A stretch of 38,877 nt of DNA. Origin: Pirellulales bacterium. GTDB lineage: Bacteria; Planctomycetota; Planctomycetia; Pirellulales; JACPPG01. Below the pieces are notes generated by a model. The model worked only from the letters and a program-made list of their open reading frames with translations. It had not been told where the DNA came from and ran no database searches. The translations under genes were made by a program, and so were the position numbers. The DNA lies in the NCBI GenBank assembly GCA_036490175.1, contig DASXEJ010000392.1, forward strand, positions 1 to 38,877, written 5' to 3'. Positions 14,878 to 31,975 of the stretch are shown in pieces; the first letter of the stretch is position 1, and the number at the start of each line of letters is the position of its first letter.

Positions 14878-14951
<74 letters not shown>

Positions 14952-14953
14952 CT

Positions 14954-14993
14954 GGCCCGAAAGTCTGAGAATCCTTGGCTTTCGGGCCTTCTT
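14954..14993 (+). terminator. Rho-independent terminator of the tRNA gene
   Basis: GGCCCGAAAG (14954-14963) pairs perfectly with CTTTCGGGCC (14979-14988) around a 15-base loop, followed by TTCTT. It begins two bases after the tRNA, as expected for a single-gene transcript. The T-run is weak. Confidence 0.75.
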
Positions 14994-15094
14994 ATGCGCT
15001 CGTGGTTCGCAGGAGCGTGGGACGTTACTAGATCGTCCGAAGCAGGCAGTGTTGCGGTCCGGTTCAGGACAAAGTGCGAAGGTCCCGGCGGTGC

Positions 15095-24207: not shown

Positions 24208-26784
24208 TTACTTAGGTGCGAACATCGCATTCTGTCGTTCGCCGCGCGACAGTAAATAGGCCATCAGATCCAACACTTCGTCATCCTTGAGCGTATTGAG
24301 CAAACCCTCCGGCATCAGTGAAACCGGCGACCTGGTAATCTCCTCGATCTCGCTTCGTTTGACACGCGTCATATGATTCGGGTCGAACATGTCCGGGCTG
24401 AGCATCAGGTCGTCGCCGTTGAGGTTCACGATTCGCCCGGTGACTACGCGTCCGTCGGACGTGGCGATTGTTACCGCCTCGTACTGATCGCTAATCACCT
24501 TGCTCGGCAACACGATGGATTCTAACAAGTCGCGAGCGCTGAAGCGGCCGGCGACGCTGGAGAGGTCAGGACCCAGTCCGCCTCCTTCTTCACTGAAGCG
24601 ATGGCAGGCAAAGCAGCGCGTGGCGGCGAATAGCGAGCGCCCACGATCGAAGTCGCGTTCCTTCAGTGTCGAGGGTGTGACAAGTGCGGTCAACTCATCG
24701 AGTGTCCAGTTCTTGACGAACGGCCGGTCGGCGACGGCGACCAGTGGCTTCTCCGACGGCTTGGCATCGAAGAGCTGGTCCAGCTCAGCCTTCTCTGTAT
24801 CGCTCAAGCCTGCGGTCGCGTCGCGTTTGATGTTGTTGATGAAGCCGCGGAAGCTGTTGCCGCCTTTGTAATCCGCCGCTTTGACGAACCAAGAAGCGTA
24901 GGCCTTGCGCAGCTCGGGCGTCCAGCCGCTGCGCAGTCCGCGCAGCGATTTGGCATAGTCGAGTTGCTCTTCCTGGGTGAGCGCGGAATTCAGCAGCGCG
25001 ACAGTTTTGGCCGCTGCGTCAGGCGCCTCCAAGTACACGAGAAGCTGCGCAAGCTCGGTATTCAGTTCGCGTCCTTTGGCCGGGAAGCAGGGGTCGAATC
25101 TTGCTACGAGCTGCGCGATGGTCTTATCGCTCGGCCGCCCGAAGCGATTCATTACAACCTGGTAAACCCGCACCAGGTCCAATTGCTGGGCATAGTCGAG
25201 TTTTTTCCAGTCGAATTGGGCGAGCGCCGTCAGTATTTGCTCGCCGAGCACCGCATCGGGTGCCGGCGTATCCTTCGCCCGATGGGCCGCATCCTGCACA
25301 GAGACCTGCGTCAGCGCCAATAAGGCTTGCAAGGTCGCCTCTGGATTCGATCGCTCGGCCAGCGCCCGCTCGCGCCAGGTTTTCGGATCCTGGAATTCGA
25401 TCGCCACCCGCGCGGCCCATCGTACGAAGCGGTCGGGATGCCCTAAGTAGGGCCATGCCGCTTCCACCGCTTTGGGATCGGCGTGGCCGTGAAATGCCTC
25501 GAGCTCGTGCCGCAAGGCGCGGGCATCAGCAGCGGCCGAGGCCTCGGCGTGCGCTGCAACTGCGGTGGGCTCGTCGCCCCGATAGGTGACGCGATACAAG
25601 CCCGAATGAGTTTTGCGACCCCCCACGAGAAAGTACATCGCGCCATCGTGCGGATTGACGACGACGTCTGTCAGCGCCAGGGGCGTGCCAGCGACGAACT
25701 CTTCTAATTCGCCACCGTACGATGCCCCCTGAGGTTTCAGGTGCAGTGCATACAACTTGCCGTAGCTCCAGTCGCACAGGTACAGGGCCTGCTCGTACTT
25801 GGCCGGAAACTTGGCCCCATAGCCAAACGTTACTCCGGTGGGCGAACCTGGGCCCACGTTGACGACCGGCGGCAGACTATCGATGTAATACGGAGGCCAT
25901 TTGCCCGATCCGTTGCGGTAGCCGAAGTCGCTGCCGCTGGTGGCGTGCAGCACGCGCGTGGGTCGATACCAGGGGGTACTGACGTCCCACTCCATGTCCG
26001 AGTCGTAAGTAAACAAGTCGCCATTGCGATTGAACGCCATGTCGAAGGGATTGCGATAGCCCATCGACACCAATTCCCATTGCTTTCCATCGGGATCGAT
26101 GCGGCAGATGTAACCCCCAGGAGCCTTTTCGCCTGTCATGAAGCCCGAGCCGTCGACCATGTACGGCAGCAACGCATCCTCTCCCCAGACGCGAGGCACG
26201 AGCGAGTTGTTCAGCGGAGGCAGTCGGGTATTGTTGCCGGCCACGATATACAGCGACTTGCCGTCCGGCGCCAGAACCACGGCGTGCGGACCATGCTCAC
26301 CGCCACCCTCGATCTTTTGCAGGAACTCGACCTTATCGAGTTGATCATCGCCATTGGTATCGCGCACGCGATACAACCCGGTCTCGAACAATTTGCCTCG
26401 ATTCACCATAACGTACAGACTGTCGAACGCCCATAACAGACCATGCGCCTCGCCGAGCGGTACGTCGATCAATTCAATCTTCGGTGCCAAATCCTTGGAG
26501 TTGGCCGGAGGTGGAGTCACTCGATACAGGCTGCCGTACTGATCCGACACGATCAGCCGGCCCTTGGGGTCGACTGTCATATTGACCCAGGAACCTTCCT
26601 TGTCCTGTGGTACCGAATAGAGCAAATCGACTTGAAATCCCTTGGGGGCATGGATCCGGCCGGCAGGATCGGCATGCTTGGGGTCCGATTTCGGGCTGCC
26701 GACGTCCTTCTTAACGTCGTCGGCAGCGAACACGAAGCTGGGAATCAGAACGAGCGCGACGACGAAGATTCTCGCGAGCGTCAT
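24208..26784 (-). CDS. PVC-type c-haem protein with N-terminal beta-propeller dehydrogenase domain
   Basis: 858 residues. The signal peptide is MTLARIFVVALVLIPSFVFA. Residues about 35-430 form a glucose/sorbosone dehydrogenase-like beta-propeller (DLLYSVPQDKEGSWVNMTVD, GEHGPHAVVLAPDGKSLYIV, GYRNPFDMAFNRNGDLFTYD). A helical HEAT-like middle part follows. The C-terminal 140 residues are the PVC-type haem domain, with CFACH at 724-728, then GGGLGPDLSSVAGRFSARDL, DGRVVTGRIVN and LKDDEVLDLMAYLLS. Such proteins are abundant in planctomycetes and are thought to oxidise sugars or polyols in the periplasm, passing electrons to the haem. The haem site is complete; the substrate is unknown. The start is placed at the signal peptide, since the frame continues upstream for 53 codons of unlikely sequence. 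Confidence 0.88.
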   Translation of the reverse strand: MTLARIFVVALVLIPSFVFAADDVKKDVGSPKSDPKHADPAGRIHAPKGFQVDLLYSVPQDKEGSWVNMTVDPKGRLIVSDQYGSLYRVTPPPANSKDLAPKIELIDVPLGEAHGLLWAFDSLYVMVNRGKLFETGLYRVRDTNGDDQLDKVEFLQKIEGGGEHGPHAVVLAPDGKSLYIVAGNNTRLPPLNNSLVPRVWGEDALLPYMVDGSGFMTGEKAPGGYICRIDPDGKQWELVSMGYRNPFDMAFNRNGDLFTYDSDMEWDVSTPWYRPTRVLHATSGSDFGYRNGSGKWPPYYIDSLPPVVNVGPGSPTGVTFGYGAKFPAKYEQALYLCDWSYGKLYALHLKPQGASYGGELEEFVAGTPLALTDVVVNPHDGAMYFLVGGRKTHSGLYRVTYRGDEPTAVAAHAEASAAADARALRHELEAFHGHADPKAVEAAWPYLGHPDRFVRWAARVAIEFQDPKTWRERALAERSNPEATLQALLALTQVSVQDAAHRAKDTPAPDAVLGEQILTALAQFDWKKLDYAQQLDLVRVYQVVMNRFGRPSDKTIAQLVARFDPCFPAKGRELNTELAQLLVYLEAPDAAAKTVALLNSALTQEEQLDYAKSLRGLRSGWTPELRKAYASWFVKAADYKGGNSFRGFINNIKRDATAGLSDTEKAELDQLFDAKPSEKPLVAVADRPFVKNWTLDELTALVTPSTLKERDFDRGRSLFAATRCFACHRFSEEGGGLGPDLSSVAGRFSARDLLESIVLPSKVISDQYEAVTIATSDGRVVTGRIVNLNGDDLMLSPDMFDPNHMTRVKRSEIEEITRSPVSLMPEGLLNTLKDDEVLDLMAYLLSRGERQNAMFAPK

Positions 26785-26951
26785 AAGGTTCTTTCGAGCG
26801 GTGGGGTGTGGGCGGGCTTGCGACACAGCTGCGGTCAATACCGTCCGACGATAACATGTCGCAAATCGCGTTGCCAGCGGGCCTACGCTCCCGGTGAGAT
26901 CGGCCCCGCGACATCGCCAAGTTGACGACCGCGAGCTGTCCATGTGTGGCT

Positions 26952-27887
26952 CTATGGTGCTCCGGCAGCTCGGGCACGCACAGCCACATCGGGGAAGTCG
27001 GAAAACAACCCATCCACGTCATAGGTCCAAAAAAAACGCTGGGTCGGTGCCTCGTCCTTGCCGAGCGTGTAGGGGTAAACCTTCAGCCGACGCTCGTGCG
27101 CCCGTCGGACTAATGAGTTGTTTGCGATCGATTGGCCATTGTTCTCAATCAGTTTGGCGGACGGCCCAATTCCATCGGCGAACGTCGCCAGTTCGTCCAG
27201 GCTGCGATCATCGAGCGATTGCCCGTGTAGATACACCAACCGTAAATCAGTTTTCAAATCGTTGCGCATCTGCCGCAAGCTGTCGAGCTCGAAGCATTGA
27301 ACAATCACCGGATCGGTGCGCCGCGTGTAACCCAAGGCCGCGTATTGCTCCAGCAACTTCGCTTCGATCGGTTGGCCCTGCTCGCGATGCCAGGCGGGCG
27401 ACTTGGGCTCGGGAATCGTCCCCACCGCGCGGCCGGCACGCTCATTCAGCCTGGCGATCATGGCGAGCATTTCGGCAAGCGTGGGAATTTGATATCCGGG
27501 CTCGGCCGCGTCATTGCGGCCTTTGACGGCCAGCGTCTTTAACTCGGCCACGGTGAAATCGATGAAGTAGTACCGCCCGTCAGCACGCCGGCGATCGGGA
27601 AACCTCTCGGCGACGTCCGTGGTTGGCCCCATGTGGATGTCATGGTTGCAGACCAGAACGCCGTCACGACTGAGCACAACATCCGGCTCGATCAGATCGG
27701 CGCCCTGGGCATAGGCCAGGGCGTAGGCCTCGAGCGTATGCTCGGGAAGATAGCCGCTAGCGCCCCGGTGCGCAATGACCAGTTTCTGGTTGGTTCCGGC
27801 CTTCGTCTCGGCGGATCGCGCAATCGACGACGGCAAAAGCACCGCTGCCAGAACACAAAGGCGGAGGGCCGCGATTGTCAGCTTCAT
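26952..27887 (-). CDS. glpQ: Secreted glycerophosphodiester phosphodiesterase
   Basis: 311 residues with a signal peptide (MKLTIAALRLCVLAAVLLPS). It hydrolyses glycerophosphodiesters to glycerol 3-phosphate and an alcohol in the periplasm. The GlpQ signature is clear: VIAHRGASGYLPEHTLEAYA at the start of the TIM barrel, with catalytic His and Arg and the metal-binding Glu; GADLIEPDVVLSRDGVLVCN followed by HDIHMGPTTDVAERFPDR, which supplies Glu, Asp and the second catalytic His; DGRYYFIDFT; and the closing TYDVDGLFSDFPDVA. Length and order match periplasmic GlpQ rather than the shorter cytoplasmic UgpQ. The start is ambiguous: ATG 27887 begins the signal peptide, ATG 27905 is also in frame, and neither has a good ribosome-binding site. 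It is 167 bases upstream of the PVC-type dehydrogenase on the same strand, so co-transcription is possible but not shown. Confidence 0.92.
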   Translation of the reverse strand: MKLTIAALRLCVLAAVLLPSSIARSAETKAGTNQKLVIAHRGASGYLPEHTLEAYALAYAQGADLIEPDVVLSRDGVLVCNHDIHMGPTTDVAERFPDRRRADGRYYFIDFTVAELKTLAVKGRNDAAEPGYQIPTLAEMLAMIARLNERAGRAVGTIPEPKSPAWHREQGQPIEAKLLEQYAALGYTRRTDPVIVQCFELDSLRQMRNDLKTDLRLVYLHGQSLDDRSLDELATFADGIGPSAKLIENNGQSIANNSLVRRAHERRLKVYPYTLGKDEAPTQRFFWTYDVDGLFSDFPDVAVRARAAGAP

Positions 27888-28027
27888 AGGGTAGCCGAGG
27901 GCCATGTGCGGCAAGGCGCGCCGTCGAGGAGGGTGTGTGTGACGCCTCCTAAACTAACGCTTGGCGGGGCCGCTTTCCAGGGTCGACCGCGAGCTGCTTA
28001 GGGCAAGCCGCGCGGGTCTCTTGAGCG

Positions 28028-28183
28028 ATGAACCAAGAGTGCCTGGTCCGCACAGATCTTACAAGTGCGCTTGGTGGGTCGACATCCGGGGGGGATCTTG
28101 ATACATTTTGCGGTGGGACGTCGCCCTTCGGGGCGCTCCTGAGTCGCCAGGTTCCTGCCCCACCTGGCGGCTCTTTTTTTTGC
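28028..28183 (+). ncRNA. Candidate structured small RNA ending in a terminator
   Basis: A segment with two strong hairpins in series: CGCCC-TTCG-GGGCG at 28122-28135, a very stable UUCG-type tetraloop, and the 10-bp terminator stem at 28143-28171 followed by TCTTTTTTTT. No convincing protein gene on the plus strand feeds this terminator, since the nearest upstream gene is on the other strand. The 5' end is unknown; 28028 is arbitrary. A 62-codon plus-strand frame and a 77-codon minus-strand frame overlap it, neither with a known domain. Confidence 0.3.
28143..28181 (+). terminator. Strong rho-independent terminator
   Basis: A ten-base-pair stem (GTCGCCAGGT with ACCTGGCGGC, one G-U pair) with a nine-base loop, followed by a near-perfect T-run. 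It is oriented to stop plus-strand transcripts. No plus-strand gene ends nearby, which makes its purpose unclear. Confidence 0.85.
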
Positions 28184-28483
28184 GCGCAGATAATTAGAAA
28201 GCTCGGCCAACGTTGAATGCGACGTGTCCAACGAGCGCTATAACTTGAGACCGAATGGGGATACCACGGAGACGTTACGCGAGATCAGCGAACCGAGTCG
28301 TCTTGCCCGCTATACGTTTGCGGGCTACGATCGAGAACCAAATTTGCCGCTTTGGTCGCGGATCGATAGAGGGGGTTGGAAACACCCAAGATGACTACCG
28401 CTGCTTAAGCAGGGGAGGTAGCACCCCTCCCATGCATACACCTCAAACTGCACCGAAAGACTTCAGGGCCGGAGCCTATCCGC
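28184..28483. other. Intergenic region before the His-rich gene
   Basis: About 300 bases with no supportable gene. An 85-codon frame at 28255-28512 overlaps the His-rich gene in another phase and looks random. The stretch GGGGAGGTAGCACCCCTCCC near 28412 can form a short hairpin in the leader of the His-rich gene. Confidence 0.4.
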
Positions 28484-28720
28484 ATGACAAATCACGAGCA
28501 TCATTCTCATGAGGAAAAGCATGAGCACGGCCATGGTCATCCGCAGGGACACCAGCACGGGGCTCACAAACGACGCGGAGTTCACAAGGACTGGCGTCTG
28601 TGGATCGTGGTGTTGATGCTGATCGCTATGGGCATCTATGTGTTGTCGGACAACGAGGCACTTCAACCTGGCGGCAAGGGTGAAGCAATGCCTGCGGCCC
28701 CTGCGCCTGCAGCCCCGTAG
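28484..28720 (+). CDS. Small His-rich single-pass membrane protein
   Basis: 78 residues. The first 34 are extremely histidine-rich (MTNHEHHSHEEKHEHGHGHP, then QGHQHGAHKRRGVHKDW), a composition suited to binding Zn, Ni, Co or Cu. One membrane helix follows (LWIVVLMLIAMGIYVL) and then a short Ala/Pro tail. With no signal peptide before the His segment and a basic KRRGVHK just before the helix, the His-rich part is probably cytoplasmic. GGAG lies about nine bases before the ATG. No metal transporter or other metal gene is adjacent, so the partner is unknown. Composition supports a metal-buffering role only as inference. The protein is too small for a family assignment, but the layout looks like a genuine gene. 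Confidence 0.72.
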   Translation: MTNHEHHSHEEKHEHGHGHPQGHQHGAHKRRGVHKDWRLWIVVLMLIAMGIYVLSDNEALQPGGKGEAMPAAPAPAAP

Positions 28721-28803
28721 GATTCACCACATCTCGAGCGACGGCGCATGAGATAATCCGCCGCGGGCCGATGTCGTCCTTCTGCCGCTGAACCGCAGCG
28801 CCG

Positions 28804-29544
28804 TCACCAATGGACGTGGACGTTCGGCAGACTTTTTTGCAGTTCTGCCACACCGGCGTCGGTGACCTTGGTCCCTTCGACGTACAGCGACTCGAGCCCG
28901 GTGATCGTACAAAGCTGCGTGATCCCCGCATCCGTGATCGGCGCATTCTCGATAATCAGGAACTTTAGCGCCGGCAGTTCCACCAGATGCGCTAAGCCCG
29001 CATCGTCGATGTGGGATGCCCCGATGCGGAGTAGTTCCAATTGCTTGAGCGCCGCAAGATGCGTCAGGCCAGCTCCCGTGATCTCTGCGGTTGCAAGATT
29101 GAGCACGCGCAGTCGAGGCATGCTGGCCAGCAGTGCCAGTCCCGCGTCAGTTATCGACGTACGGCCGAGTACCAGGGTATCGAGCTCGTCAAGCGCCGCC
29201 AGGCTGGCAATTCCGGCGTCGCTGACCGCGGCCCTTGGCAGCTTGATCACGCGGATCTGTTTCAGAGTGCGCAGTCGCGCCAGATCTTCATCGCGCAGCT
29301 CTACGTCGGGCAAATCGATCTCATCGGCGACCCCGTCAGCGACGAGATGGATTTGATGCGCGAATTCCGGATCGATCGTATGATCGGCCGCAGGCGCGGC
29401 GATCACAGGACATTCATCCGGGCCGCTGCAATCTTGTCCGCAGCCAGCCGCGGAAGCGCATACGACCAAGCACGGCAAGAATATCGCACGTGTACGCGTG
29501 AAGCCGCGAAAGCGCATCATGGCTTGTCGACTGAGAGTGATCAT
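28804..29544 (-). CDS. Leucine-rich repeat protein, probable lipoprotein
   Basis: 246 residues. An N-terminal hydrophobic segment ends in CASAAGC, a plausible lipobox. From about residue 65 onwards there are six or seven leucine-rich repeats of about 24 residues with the planctomycete-type pattern L..L..L..L.L..T.ITDAGLA.L, for example LDELDTLVLGRTSITDAGLA and ITGLESLYVEGTKVTDAGVA. Such LRR proteins are binding scaffolds; the partner is unknown. The start is fixed by context: the ATG at 29544 overlaps the TGA of the upstream DUF3500 gene as ATGA, so translation is probably coupled. It is the last gene of a minus-strand run with a PQQ-type beta-propeller and an alpha/beta hydrolase. No terminator with a T-run was seen after it. 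Confidence 0.87.
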   Translation of the reverse strand: MITLSRQAMMRFRGFTRTRAIFLPCLVVCASAAGCGQDCSGPDECPVIAAPAADHTIDPEFAHQIHLVADGVADEIDLPDVELRDEDLARLRTLKQIRVIKLPRAAVSDAGIASLAALDELDTLVLGRTSITDAGLALLASMPRLRVLNLATAEITGAGLTHLAALKQLELLRIGASHIDDAGLAHLVELPALKFLIIENAPITDAGITQLCTITGLESLYVEGTKVTDAGVAELQKSLPNVHVHW

Positions 29545-30572
29545 AGTCCCTGTCCAAAATCTCCTGGCACGTCACGCCATAACGAATGGATGTGATTGGC
29601 TACGTTGCCCGCGGCATCGGGCTGCGTGTTGACGAACTCGATCACGAACGTTGGGCCTTGCAAGACGTAATAGTGACCGATGCCTGGCTTATCGGCGCCG
29701 GCCCAGGCAAATTGAATCTTTTCCGGGCCCGCTTGCTGGATCGCGTCGAGGCGCGCCTTCGACACCGCGGCTGGCATATTGTCAGTATACGCCTTGAGAA
29801 TTCCCCGCATGAGCTCGACCTGGTCGGCGTTCATTTCGGCGGCCGATAGACCTCCCAACGATTCGCTGGGCGCCTTCGGCAGCGCTGCACCACGAAGATC
29901 GTTGGGCGCCTTGTCGGCGATAATCGCCTTTTTGCGCTGCTCGGGCGTGAGCGAAGCCAGCAGCCTGAAGCCGGTGTCTTCCTCGGGCTTGAGAATCCGC
30001 AGTCCCTTCTTGTTCGAACCGAAGTCACTTTTCACTTCGGCCGGATTGGCGCCCAAGAACGTTGGTGTTGTGGCGGCTATCCGTCCGTGGTCGACGACAA
30101 AGTTCAACGACAAGTGATGTCCCTCGACGCTCCAACCCCAGCGGCCGTCGCTATCCGGCGTGCCGAATACGGTGAAGTAATATCGCTCGGGATCACGGAT
30201 CGGTGAGTCTGTACGCGATTTCTCAAGTTCGTGCAGAATTTCTTCCAGGCCCATGATTGTCGTGGCCTTATCGTAGCCGAGATGACTTAGCCCGCTTTCC
30301 ATTAGTTTGTGCGCGGCACACCGCTGGGCGTCATCCATATGCTTGATTTGCAGCCCCTTGCGTTGCGGCTTGGGGATGAAATGCCAATCGAGTCGAGCTG
30401 GGTCGTCGAAGGGTAGGGTTGCCGTGGCGCGCTGGTCGGGAGTGAGGGACGCCAGAAAGCCTTGCGCGCCAGTGACCATGTTCGGCCCCGGATCGGTCAG
30501 CTCGAAAGCCAACCAGCCACCGCCGACGACGAGCAAGAGTAGTGCGGACACGATGATGAACTTGGATCGCAT
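29541..30572 (-). CDS. DUF3500 family protein
   Basis: 343 residues. It starts with MRSKFIIVSALLLLVVGGGW, a signal peptide or membrane anchor. The rest matches the DUF3500 family: FLASLTPDQRATATLPFDDP, RLDWHFIPKPQRKGLQIKHM, YYFTVFGTPDSDGRWGWSVE, GHHLSLNFVV, RLLASLTPEQRKKAIIADKA and a His-rich end HIHSLWRD. The family is common in planctomycetes and other bacteria and has no established biochemical function; conserved His residues (GHHLSLN, HIHS) may bind metal, which is inference. ATG 30572 is chosen because GAGGA lies upstream and the hydrophobic segment begins there. It is translationally coupled to the LRR gene (ATGA overlap) and lies 86 bases after the PQQ-type gene, so one operon is likely. 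Confidence 0.88.
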   Translation of the reverse strand: MRSKFIIVSALLLLVVGGGWLAFELTDPGPNMVTGAQGFLASLTPDQRATATLPFDDPARLDWHFIPKPQRKGLQIKHMDDAQRCAAHKLMESGLSHLGYDKATTIMGLEEILHELEKSRTDSPIRDPERYYFTVFGTPDSDGRWGWSVEGHHLSLNFVVDHGRIAATTPTFLGANPAEVKSDFGSNKKGLRILKPEEDTGFRLLASLTPEQRKKAIIADKAPNDLRGAALPKAPSESLGGLSAAEMNADQVELMRGILKAYTDNMPAAVSKARLDAIQQAGPEKIQFAWAGADKPGIGHYYVLQGPTFVIEFVNTQPDAAGNVANHIHSLWRDVPGDFGQGL

Positions 30573-30658
30573 GCTTGAATATTCCTCACAGTTGCCGGTT
30601 ACGGTTCGGTATGTCACTGCCACGCACCGCGGTAACTCGGACGTGACTGGCGATGTAT

Positions 30659-31975
30659 CTATTTCGCAGACAGGCTCGCGCAGACTAATTCCTTGTCATT
30701 GCGAGCAAAAATGTGCTTGTTGGCATAGGCAGGGTGCGACCAGCAGACCCCGTCGCCGCGGCGGAGTTGTTCGGTCGTGGGATCAATCAGCTTGGCGCGA
30801 CTGATTTCGGTAAATCCTTGGGGAGACAGCCGGCTAATGATCAATTCACCCCGATCGTTGAACATCCAGATATTCTCGCCGTTGCGCACCATGTGGATCG
30901 TGGCCCAGCGGGCACGTGGCACCGCCGCCTCGCTTTCCCATATCCGGTCTCCCGTTTTCGCGTCCAGGCAGCGCAGCTCGCCGTAGCTGTCGACACCGTA
31001 TACATAGTCGCCCGTCATGTACGGCGTGCTGATGATCGAATGTAGGGTATCGGTCTGCTTCTCATCCGGCCCTAAGCGGCGCCAGATCGGTTCCACCGCC
31101 AAGCGGTCGGGCAGAAGCTTGAGCATCAAAGAGCCGTCGTAAAACGAGCTGACAAACAAGCGATCTCCGTCCACCACCGGCGTCGTAATGTTGATGACCA
31201 TGCGGGTCGGCTTGAACGGATGCTGCCAATAGACCTTGCCCGTGGCCGGATCGAGCCCGGCCACACTGTCGCCAGTCCAGCAAACCAGCACGCGCTGACC
31301 AGCTTGCTCGATGATGATGGGGGCCGAGTACGAGGCCTGGTCATCGAGCGCGCGCCAACGTTCCTCGCCACTCTGCTTGTCGAACGCTACCAGGCAGGCG
31401 TTGTCCTCGCCGCCGATTTGCACAATCACCAGGTCCTTGTCCACCAGCGGCGAGGCCGAGATGCCCCAGATAGGCATGCGGATCTTATATAGCTCGTTTA
31501 GATCCTTGACCCAAAGAATCTTGCCGTCGGCGGCGTTGAAACAGTGCAGGTGCCCCATTGTTCCCAGAGCATAAGCGCGCCCTTCGTCGATCGAGACCGA
31601 AGCCCGCGGACCGGCCACGTATTGCACGGTGTATTCGCAGTGGTACTGGTACGACCACAGCGGCTTGCCCGTGTCGGCATCGAAGGCAAGAACCCGTTCG
31701 ATCTGTTGGGGCATGTCCTGTCGGTCCATGACAAAAACGCGCCCGTCGGCGACCGTGGGGCCGCAATAACCGCTCGAGATCGGTGCTCGCCAGCGCACGG
31801 GCAGTTGTTCCGCCGGAGTATTCTGTGCGACAGGGAACTTCTCCATGACGCCCGACTCACGCCATACGCCGTCGCGCGTCGGACCTCGCCATTGCGGCCA
31901 TTCATCGCCGCTGGCTGGTTGGACCGCTGCAATGCAAAGGATCGACAGCAGCAACAGCGCGGTTGAGCGTGTCAT
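30659..31975 (-). CDS. Secreted PQQ-type beta-propeller repeat protein
   Basis: 438 residues. The signal peptide is MTRSTALLLLSILCIAAVQP, then ASG. The mature part begins DEWPQWRGPTRDGVWRESGV, the standard opening of planctomycete PQQ-like WD40 proteins. Repeats of the type ADGRVFVMDRQ, VLAFDADTGKPLWSYQ, CFNAADGKILWVKDL, VAFDKQSGEERWRALDD, GLDPATGKVYWQHPF and CLDAKTGDRIWESEA give seven or eight propeller blades. Whether it binds PQQ is not shown; most such proteins are structural or sugar-related, and the quinoprotein catalytic Asp and cysteine pair is not apparent. GGAG precedes the ATG. It lies between the alpha/beta hydrolase gene (119 bases) and the DUF3500 gene (86 bases) on the same strand. 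Confidence 0.9.
   Translation of the reverse strand: MTRSTALLLLSILCIAAVQPASGDEWPQWRGPTRDGVWRESGVMEKFPVAQNTPAEQLPVRWRAPISSGYCGPTVADGRVFVMDRQDMPQQIERVLAFDADTGKPLWSYQYHCEYTVQYVAGPRASVSIDEGRAYALGTMGHLHCFNAADGKILWVKDLNELYKIRMPIWGISASPLVDKDLVIVQIGGEDNACLVAFDKQSGEERWRALDDQASYSAPIIIEQAGQRVLVCWTGDSVAGLDPATGKVYWQHPFKPTRMVINITTPVVDGDRLFVSSFYDGSLMLKLLPDRLAVEPIWRRLGPDEKQTDTLHSIISTPYMTGDYVYGVDSYGELRCLDAKTGDRIWESEAAVPRARWATIHMVRNGENIWMFNDRGELIISRLSPQGFTEISRAKLIDPTTEQLRRGDGVCWSHPAYANKHIFARNDKELVCASLSAK

Follow-up and report, generated by a model that had tools for sequence, protein, structure and literature searches.

A predicted family of sibling small RNAs with a near-constant CUGCCCC terminator loop in the Pirellulales

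RepG of Helicobacter pylori uses the C/U-rich loop of its terminator as a seed that binds a G-repeat in a leader (PMC8295292), and sX13 of Xanthomonas, an RNA of 115 nt with three C-rich loops, acts independently of Hfq on G-rich targets near starts (PMC3771888). In the alpha-r14/cuckoo RNAs, with NfeR1, an ultraconserved loop motif is carried by hairpins whose stems differ (PMC10746234), and the FopS family of Bacteroides thetaiotaomicron has some twelve paralogous sRNAs in a genome, each with its own promoter and terminator (PMC11697453).

We analysed a 38,877-nt stretch of DNA (the window) from a Pirellulales genome of 7.58 Mb (G000), in which an earlier reading made from the letters alone (the sequence-only reading) had noted a strong plus-strand terminator preceded by a UUCG-type hairpin at 28028-28183, and had proposed an independent sRNA gene. 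The features assigned to the locus are listed below in window coordinates.

26952-27914, minus strand: GDPD gene, the divergent upstream neighbour of the sRNA
28079..28084, plus strand: -35 box TCGACA, part of the sole sigma-70-like site in 25000-31000
28099..28107, plus strand: extended -10 box TGaTACATT (TG-n-TAnnnT in 4/4 genus genomes, spacer not conserved)
28114..28181, plus strand: predicted sRNA of about 68 nt, its start placed from the -10 box and its end from the T-run
28115..28139, plus strand: hairpin 1 with a cUUCGg tetraloop (inner stem 28122-28126/28131-28135)
28141..28152, plus strand: 5' arm of the 12-bp terminator stem, from pairing and covariation in 59 copies
28153..28161, plus strand: terminator loop UCCUGCCCC, 9 nt (family core CUGCCCC at 28155-28161, next base A or G)
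28162..28173, plus strand: 3' arm of the terminator stem, from pairing and covariation in 59 copies
28174..28181, plus strand: terminator T-run, from the sequence
28182..28187, plus strand: GCGCGC directly 3' of the T-run (GCGC is common there in the family)

The terminator is indeed strong (28141-28181, -22.2 kcal/mol, z -5.76, equalled by none of 200 shuffles) and is preceded by a UUCG hairpin at 28122-28135 (CGCCC-UUCG-GGGCG), though this hairpin by itself is only mildly unusual (z -1.33, 22/200 shuffles equal). No plus-strand protein gene ends at the terminator, as had been claimed, the upstream GDPD gene being on the minus strand. A generic terminator scan proves nothing alone, because it returned 5 sites against 5.4 in shuffles. 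The predicted 68-nt RNA (28114-28181) has an unusually stable fold (MFE -36.9 kcal/mol, z -4.28, 0/200 shuffles equal), and the covariance model of the family described below matches the locus at 28092-28189 with 71.6 bits. The fold of the whole interval 28028-28183 was unremarkable (z -1.02, 30/200 shuffles equal) because the unit begins near 28114 rather than 28028, and this interval was ruled out as the full RNA. The promoter, which had been suggested at 27900-28050, is predicted instead at 28079-28107, the only sigma-70-like site in 6 kb, where chance would give 2.0. Downstream of the sRNA, 28484-28720 encodes a His-rich protein of 78 aa with one likely membrane segment; it had no Pfam match.

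Searching 57 genomes at the DNA level recovered the sRNA block in three congeners, at 92-95% identity over 65-69 nt, with the same divergent GDPD gene upstream and an LRR gene further on in each. Small His-rich frames similar to that of the window lie at the same place in two of them (G001 and G003). The conserved columns of the alignment are TCGAC, about 17 mostly unconserved positions, TG-n-TA-n3-T, a short unconserved stretch, and then the RNA, its T-run and the GCGCGC; TCGAC[AG] stands at -35 in all four genus genomes, at a spacing of 17 nt. The comparison establishes the anatomy of the predicted gene and its conservation. All four genomes keep the promoter boxes, exactly 17 nt apart, and the RNA of ~68 nt, but not the surrounding sequence, which is the footprint expected of an RNA gene with its promoter. 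We regard it as very probable that 28079-28181 is an sRNA gene, and we infer that it is transcribed. The independent gene originally proposed is therefore supported, both by the genus footprint and by the order-wide covarying family, with its borders corrected to about 28079-28181; it is however not a solitary gene but one among many siblings.

The siblings were recognised by their loop. A 17-mer around it, AGGTTCCTGCCCCACCT, occurs in ten exact copies in G000, where we estimate that ~0.001 would be expected, and nine of the ten are followed by a T-run of at least 5. The covariance model gave 11 family matches in this genome at E<=1e-5, which with their promoter-like sites and common loop is what paralogous independent genes sharing a seed, i.e. 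sibling (multicopy) sRNAs, should look like. Around the constant loop, the stems, 5' hairpins and promoters differ from copy to copy. The seed alignment was built from 76 loop matches by keeping those with a T-run of at least 4 and enough flank and removing three double-loop loci (L064, L065 and L086), which left 60, and then dropping L100 as a coding chance match, which left 59. In these 59 copies 94.2% of the cells of the terminator stem are paired and 9 of the 12 pairs show two-sided changes; the covariation score (0.626) exceeded 500/500 shuffles and all slid versions of the stem (best 0.174). With 85 copies, two-sided changes were found in 11 of 12 pairs, and the core CUGCCCC was present in 84 of the 85, followed by A or G. 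The invariance of the loop in the seed is partly by construction, because the loop was used to find the copies, and the 20 copies added via model R1 are biased towards it likewise; a set of M20 peptidase loci collected by protein, described below, is free of this bias. The three bases 5' of the core vary (UUC, UAC, UCU, UUG, UCG, UCC, GCA and others). The 5' hairpin also characterises the family, with a z that averages -2.49 over 83 copies and 0.05 over 85 control stretches (p 1e-20), although this and the other family p-values are optimistic because related sequences are not independent. These comparisons establish a family, and they bear out the covariation that had been suggested as a check in related planctomycetes, in that the terminator stem covaries across the order around a near-invariant loop. 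GCGC was enriched in the 8 nt that follow the T-run (43/59 copies vs 9/73 other terminator-like sites) but was rejected as a family mark, being partly general to strong terminators; it is also seen at ordinary ones, e.g. that of a tRNA (14878-14951), at 14910-15003.

Model R1 placed the family in 98 of 146 Pirellulales genomes at E<=1e-3, and in 73 of the 146, covering 17 of 20 families of the order, at E<=1e-7. These counts are approximate, because a match around E 1e-6 need not be a member (L251-L253 and L256 are without the loop) and a true member in G041 scored only 5e-5. In one family (f8) none of the 22 genomes had a copy by model R1 at E<=1e-7; the f8 genomes checked do have RRM and CsrA proteins. 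The RNAs are therefore not essential to the order, since no copy is seen in about half of its genomes when the threshold is strict, nor in any of the 22 from f8. In a sample of 246 genomes of the phylum all four members of the order matched, and 12 of the 242 genomes from outside the Pirellulales did so, none better than E 2.0e-4. In a sample of 297 genomes of the class (model R2, E<=1e-5) there were 54 matches, 51 within the order and three outside it, the latter with loops lacking CUGCCCC. When 84,980 species genomes were scanned for the pattern, 17 stretches matched; every one comes from a metagenome-assembled genome of Planctomycetota or lower planctomycete groups, several of them Pirellulales. 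By these searches the family is restricted to the Pirellulales, with no confirmed copy outside the order.

In the mechanism that we propose, the gene at 28079-28181 would be transcribed from the sigma-70-like promoter into an RNA of ~68 nt, capped by the 5' hairpin and ended by the intrinsic terminator, whose 9-nt loop would present CUGCCCC. The RNA would act in trans by pairing of this loop with G-rich RNA, and the sibling copies (~11 in the genome) may supply dosage or permit different expression cues, since their promoters and 5' hairpins differ and their loop does not. A fixed loop on freely changing stems implies that the loop is read by something, and the near-constant CUGCCCC suggests a common regulatory partner of the copies. 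Pairing with G-rich RNA is preferred as the mechanism because it has the best precedent (RepG and sX13). We consider the full explanation, sibling trans-acting sRNAs together with loop pairing, somewhat more probable than its negation. The target tests did not bring out a target. A scan of five genus genomes for GGGGCAGGA-N(0-14)-ATG gave 45 sites, vs 11 for the backward control, but none of the 45 was a convincing target, most lying within long frames or ahead of trivial ORFs, i.e. coding or chance. Those common to G000, G001 and G002 fall inside one conserved coding frame, which we take to be Rho, and the best match at a translation start (L214, G000:C231) was not found again when the congeners were scanned for that pattern. 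In coding sequence GGGGCAG, the loop complement, was neither enriched nor avoided (51 vs 46 +- 7), and CTGCCCC gave no signal, its count being under the codon-shuffled mean as were those of most permutations. It follows that the targets would be few and specific, or that the reader would be a protein.

The second of these possibilities is the alternative that survives best. An RNA-binding protein could recognise the CUGCCCC loop whatever the stem, with the RNAs as its decoys or cofactors and the copies setting the level of free protein, which we think rather unlikely. A near-invariant loop on covarying stems would fit such a protein, as would the doubling of the motif across both hairpins in some copies (L064, L065, L086 and L254) and the absence of any excess of the loop's complement at translation starts. 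However, neither candidate reader fits. CsrA (PF02599) is abundant, with 3 to 14 matches in each of 40/40 Pirellulales genomes and 10 in G000, yet CsrA prefers GGA and the loop contains none. RRM_1 proteins occur in 33 of the 40 genomes and do not track the family: five of the seven genomes without them (G009, G015, G021, G025 and G027) carry strong family copies, which rules out RRM_1 as an obligate partner. Hfq (PF17209) was found in none of 40 Pirellulales relatives (controls were positive in 5 of 14), so that assignment to the Hfq-dependent sRNAs, which presupposes Hfq in the host, does not hold; the expansion of CsrA is striking beside this result.

That the RNAs are anti-Shine-Dalgarno sRNAs of the cuckoo (alpha-r14) type, blocking ribosome binding sites generally via UUCCU, is very unlikely. 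The window loop does contain UUCCU and G000 does use Shine-Dalgarno sequences (AGGA/GGAG, with a peak around -13 to -9), but UUCCU is not the conserved part, because the three bases before CUGCCCC vary, and the core itself, rather than CCUCCUCCC, is what the loops have in common. In tests on 800 kb of G000 with 602 called genes, the loop paired more weakly with 525 initiation regions (-7.47 kcal/mol) than with upstream DNA (-7.94 kcal/mol), whereas anti-Shine-Dalgarno strings including CCUCCUCCC showed the opposite sign and preferred initiation regions. Generic anti-Shine-Dalgarno action was rejected on this result.

It is highly improbable that the copies are ordinary terminators or leader attenuators of adjacent genes. 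The hairpin does make a good terminator, and at some loci a same-strand gene (the His-rich gene or nuoA) lies downstream as an attenuator would require, but the downstream genes vary among loci and termination has no need of an invariant loop. With neighbours defined as ORFs of at least 180 aa by a simple gene caller, the upstream neighbour is on the opposite strand for 30 of 39 copies and on the same strand for nine; in the window it is the minus-strand GDPD gene. The copies are therefore not terminators of upstream genes. They also have promoter-like sites of their own: the best upstream promoter score averaged 9.79 in 59 copies vs 7.49 in 1,870 background windows from the same loci (p 1.5e-30), and scores of at least 9 were reached by 83% of copies vs 11% of background windows.

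A dispersed, mobile REP-like repeat that contains the hairpin by chance is barely plausible. It would account for the many copies and for the tandem arrays, five copies in L084 (G014:C364) and three in L085 (G024:C188), a few hundred bases apart, but not for stems that are dissimilar and covary, for a promoter conserved with exact spacing, or for synteny across eight families. One copy of L084 (1577-1675) is without the CUGCCCC core, which it has lost. The synteny concerns one sub-lineage, which at 14 loci stands upstream of an M20 peptidase gene in divergent orientation; several of these loci have nuoA downstream. To avoid the circularity of finding copies by their loop, 30 M20 loci were fetched by protein; 10, from ten genera, had a CUGCCCC terminator hairpin upstream, and the other 20, a few of them cut by contig ends, had none. 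Both sets together place the synteny in families f1, f2, f3, f7, f12, f17, f19 and f20. Finally, a small protein encoded by the 62- or 77-codon frames, both of which exist and had been named as the alternative to an RNA, can be practically dismissed, because one-base indels (+1/-1) among congeners fall inside the block and the starts lie outside it in unconserved sequence, and because conservation tracks the hairpins.

We also put forward, tentatively, a broader idea: an order-wide, Hfq-less post-transcriptional network, in which many sRNA genes would share only the CUGCCCC loop on freely evolving hairpins and would have one dedicated reader. If so, the reader would be a new RNA-binding protein or else a single RNA target of ancient origin, and different promoters would feed one shared signal. 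We found no sRNA study of the Pirellulales in the open-access literature searched. The fixed loop, the many copies and the synteny in eight families offer a direct handle on mRNA regulation in this order: a single RNA as bait, a single covariance model, and carrier genomes that are single contigs.

At gathering thresholds Rfam 15 gave only the tRNA in the window and no matches at the ten sibling loci. A weak full-length match to RF00519 suhB/mmgR (28116-28188, 23.5 bits, E 0.022) is far under the gathering score of 41 and was rejected as chance or shared form, and an lncRNA match at a relaxed threshold as chance. The open-access literature on sRNAs of Pirellulales and planctomycetes does not describe the family, nor do the accessible parts of PMC9029176 report it; this absence is not proof of novelty, because most subscription papers and bioRxiv preprints were outside the search.

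Among the known systems, RepG is also a stem-loop sRNA with a C/U-rich terminator loop, but it binds a G-repeat in one leader, whereas the Pirellulales RNAs have a CUGCCCC core and many copies; their loop is conserved and the scans of leaders gave no target, and we claim a likeness of form and not homology. sX13 shares C-rich apical loops and action without Hfq, but has three such loops, whereas the Pirellulales RNA mostly has one, in the terminator, and translation starts are not enriched in its complement. The alpha-r14/cuckoo RNAs likewise have a constant loop motif on differing stems, but theirs is the anti-Shine-Dalgarno CCUCCUCCC, carried in three hairpins; CUGCCCC is mostly confined to the terminator and the anti-Shine-Dalgarno test was negative. 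FopS resembles the family in its many paralogous sRNAs per genome with their own promoters and terminators, but has a single-stranded 5' seed that is associated with RbpB, an RRM protein; in the Pirellulales it is the terminator loop that stays constant, and co-occurrence with RRM proteins is not strict. On this comparison we rate the Pirellulales RNAs as a new family among sibling sRNAs, distinct in its loop and in its Hfq-less setting.
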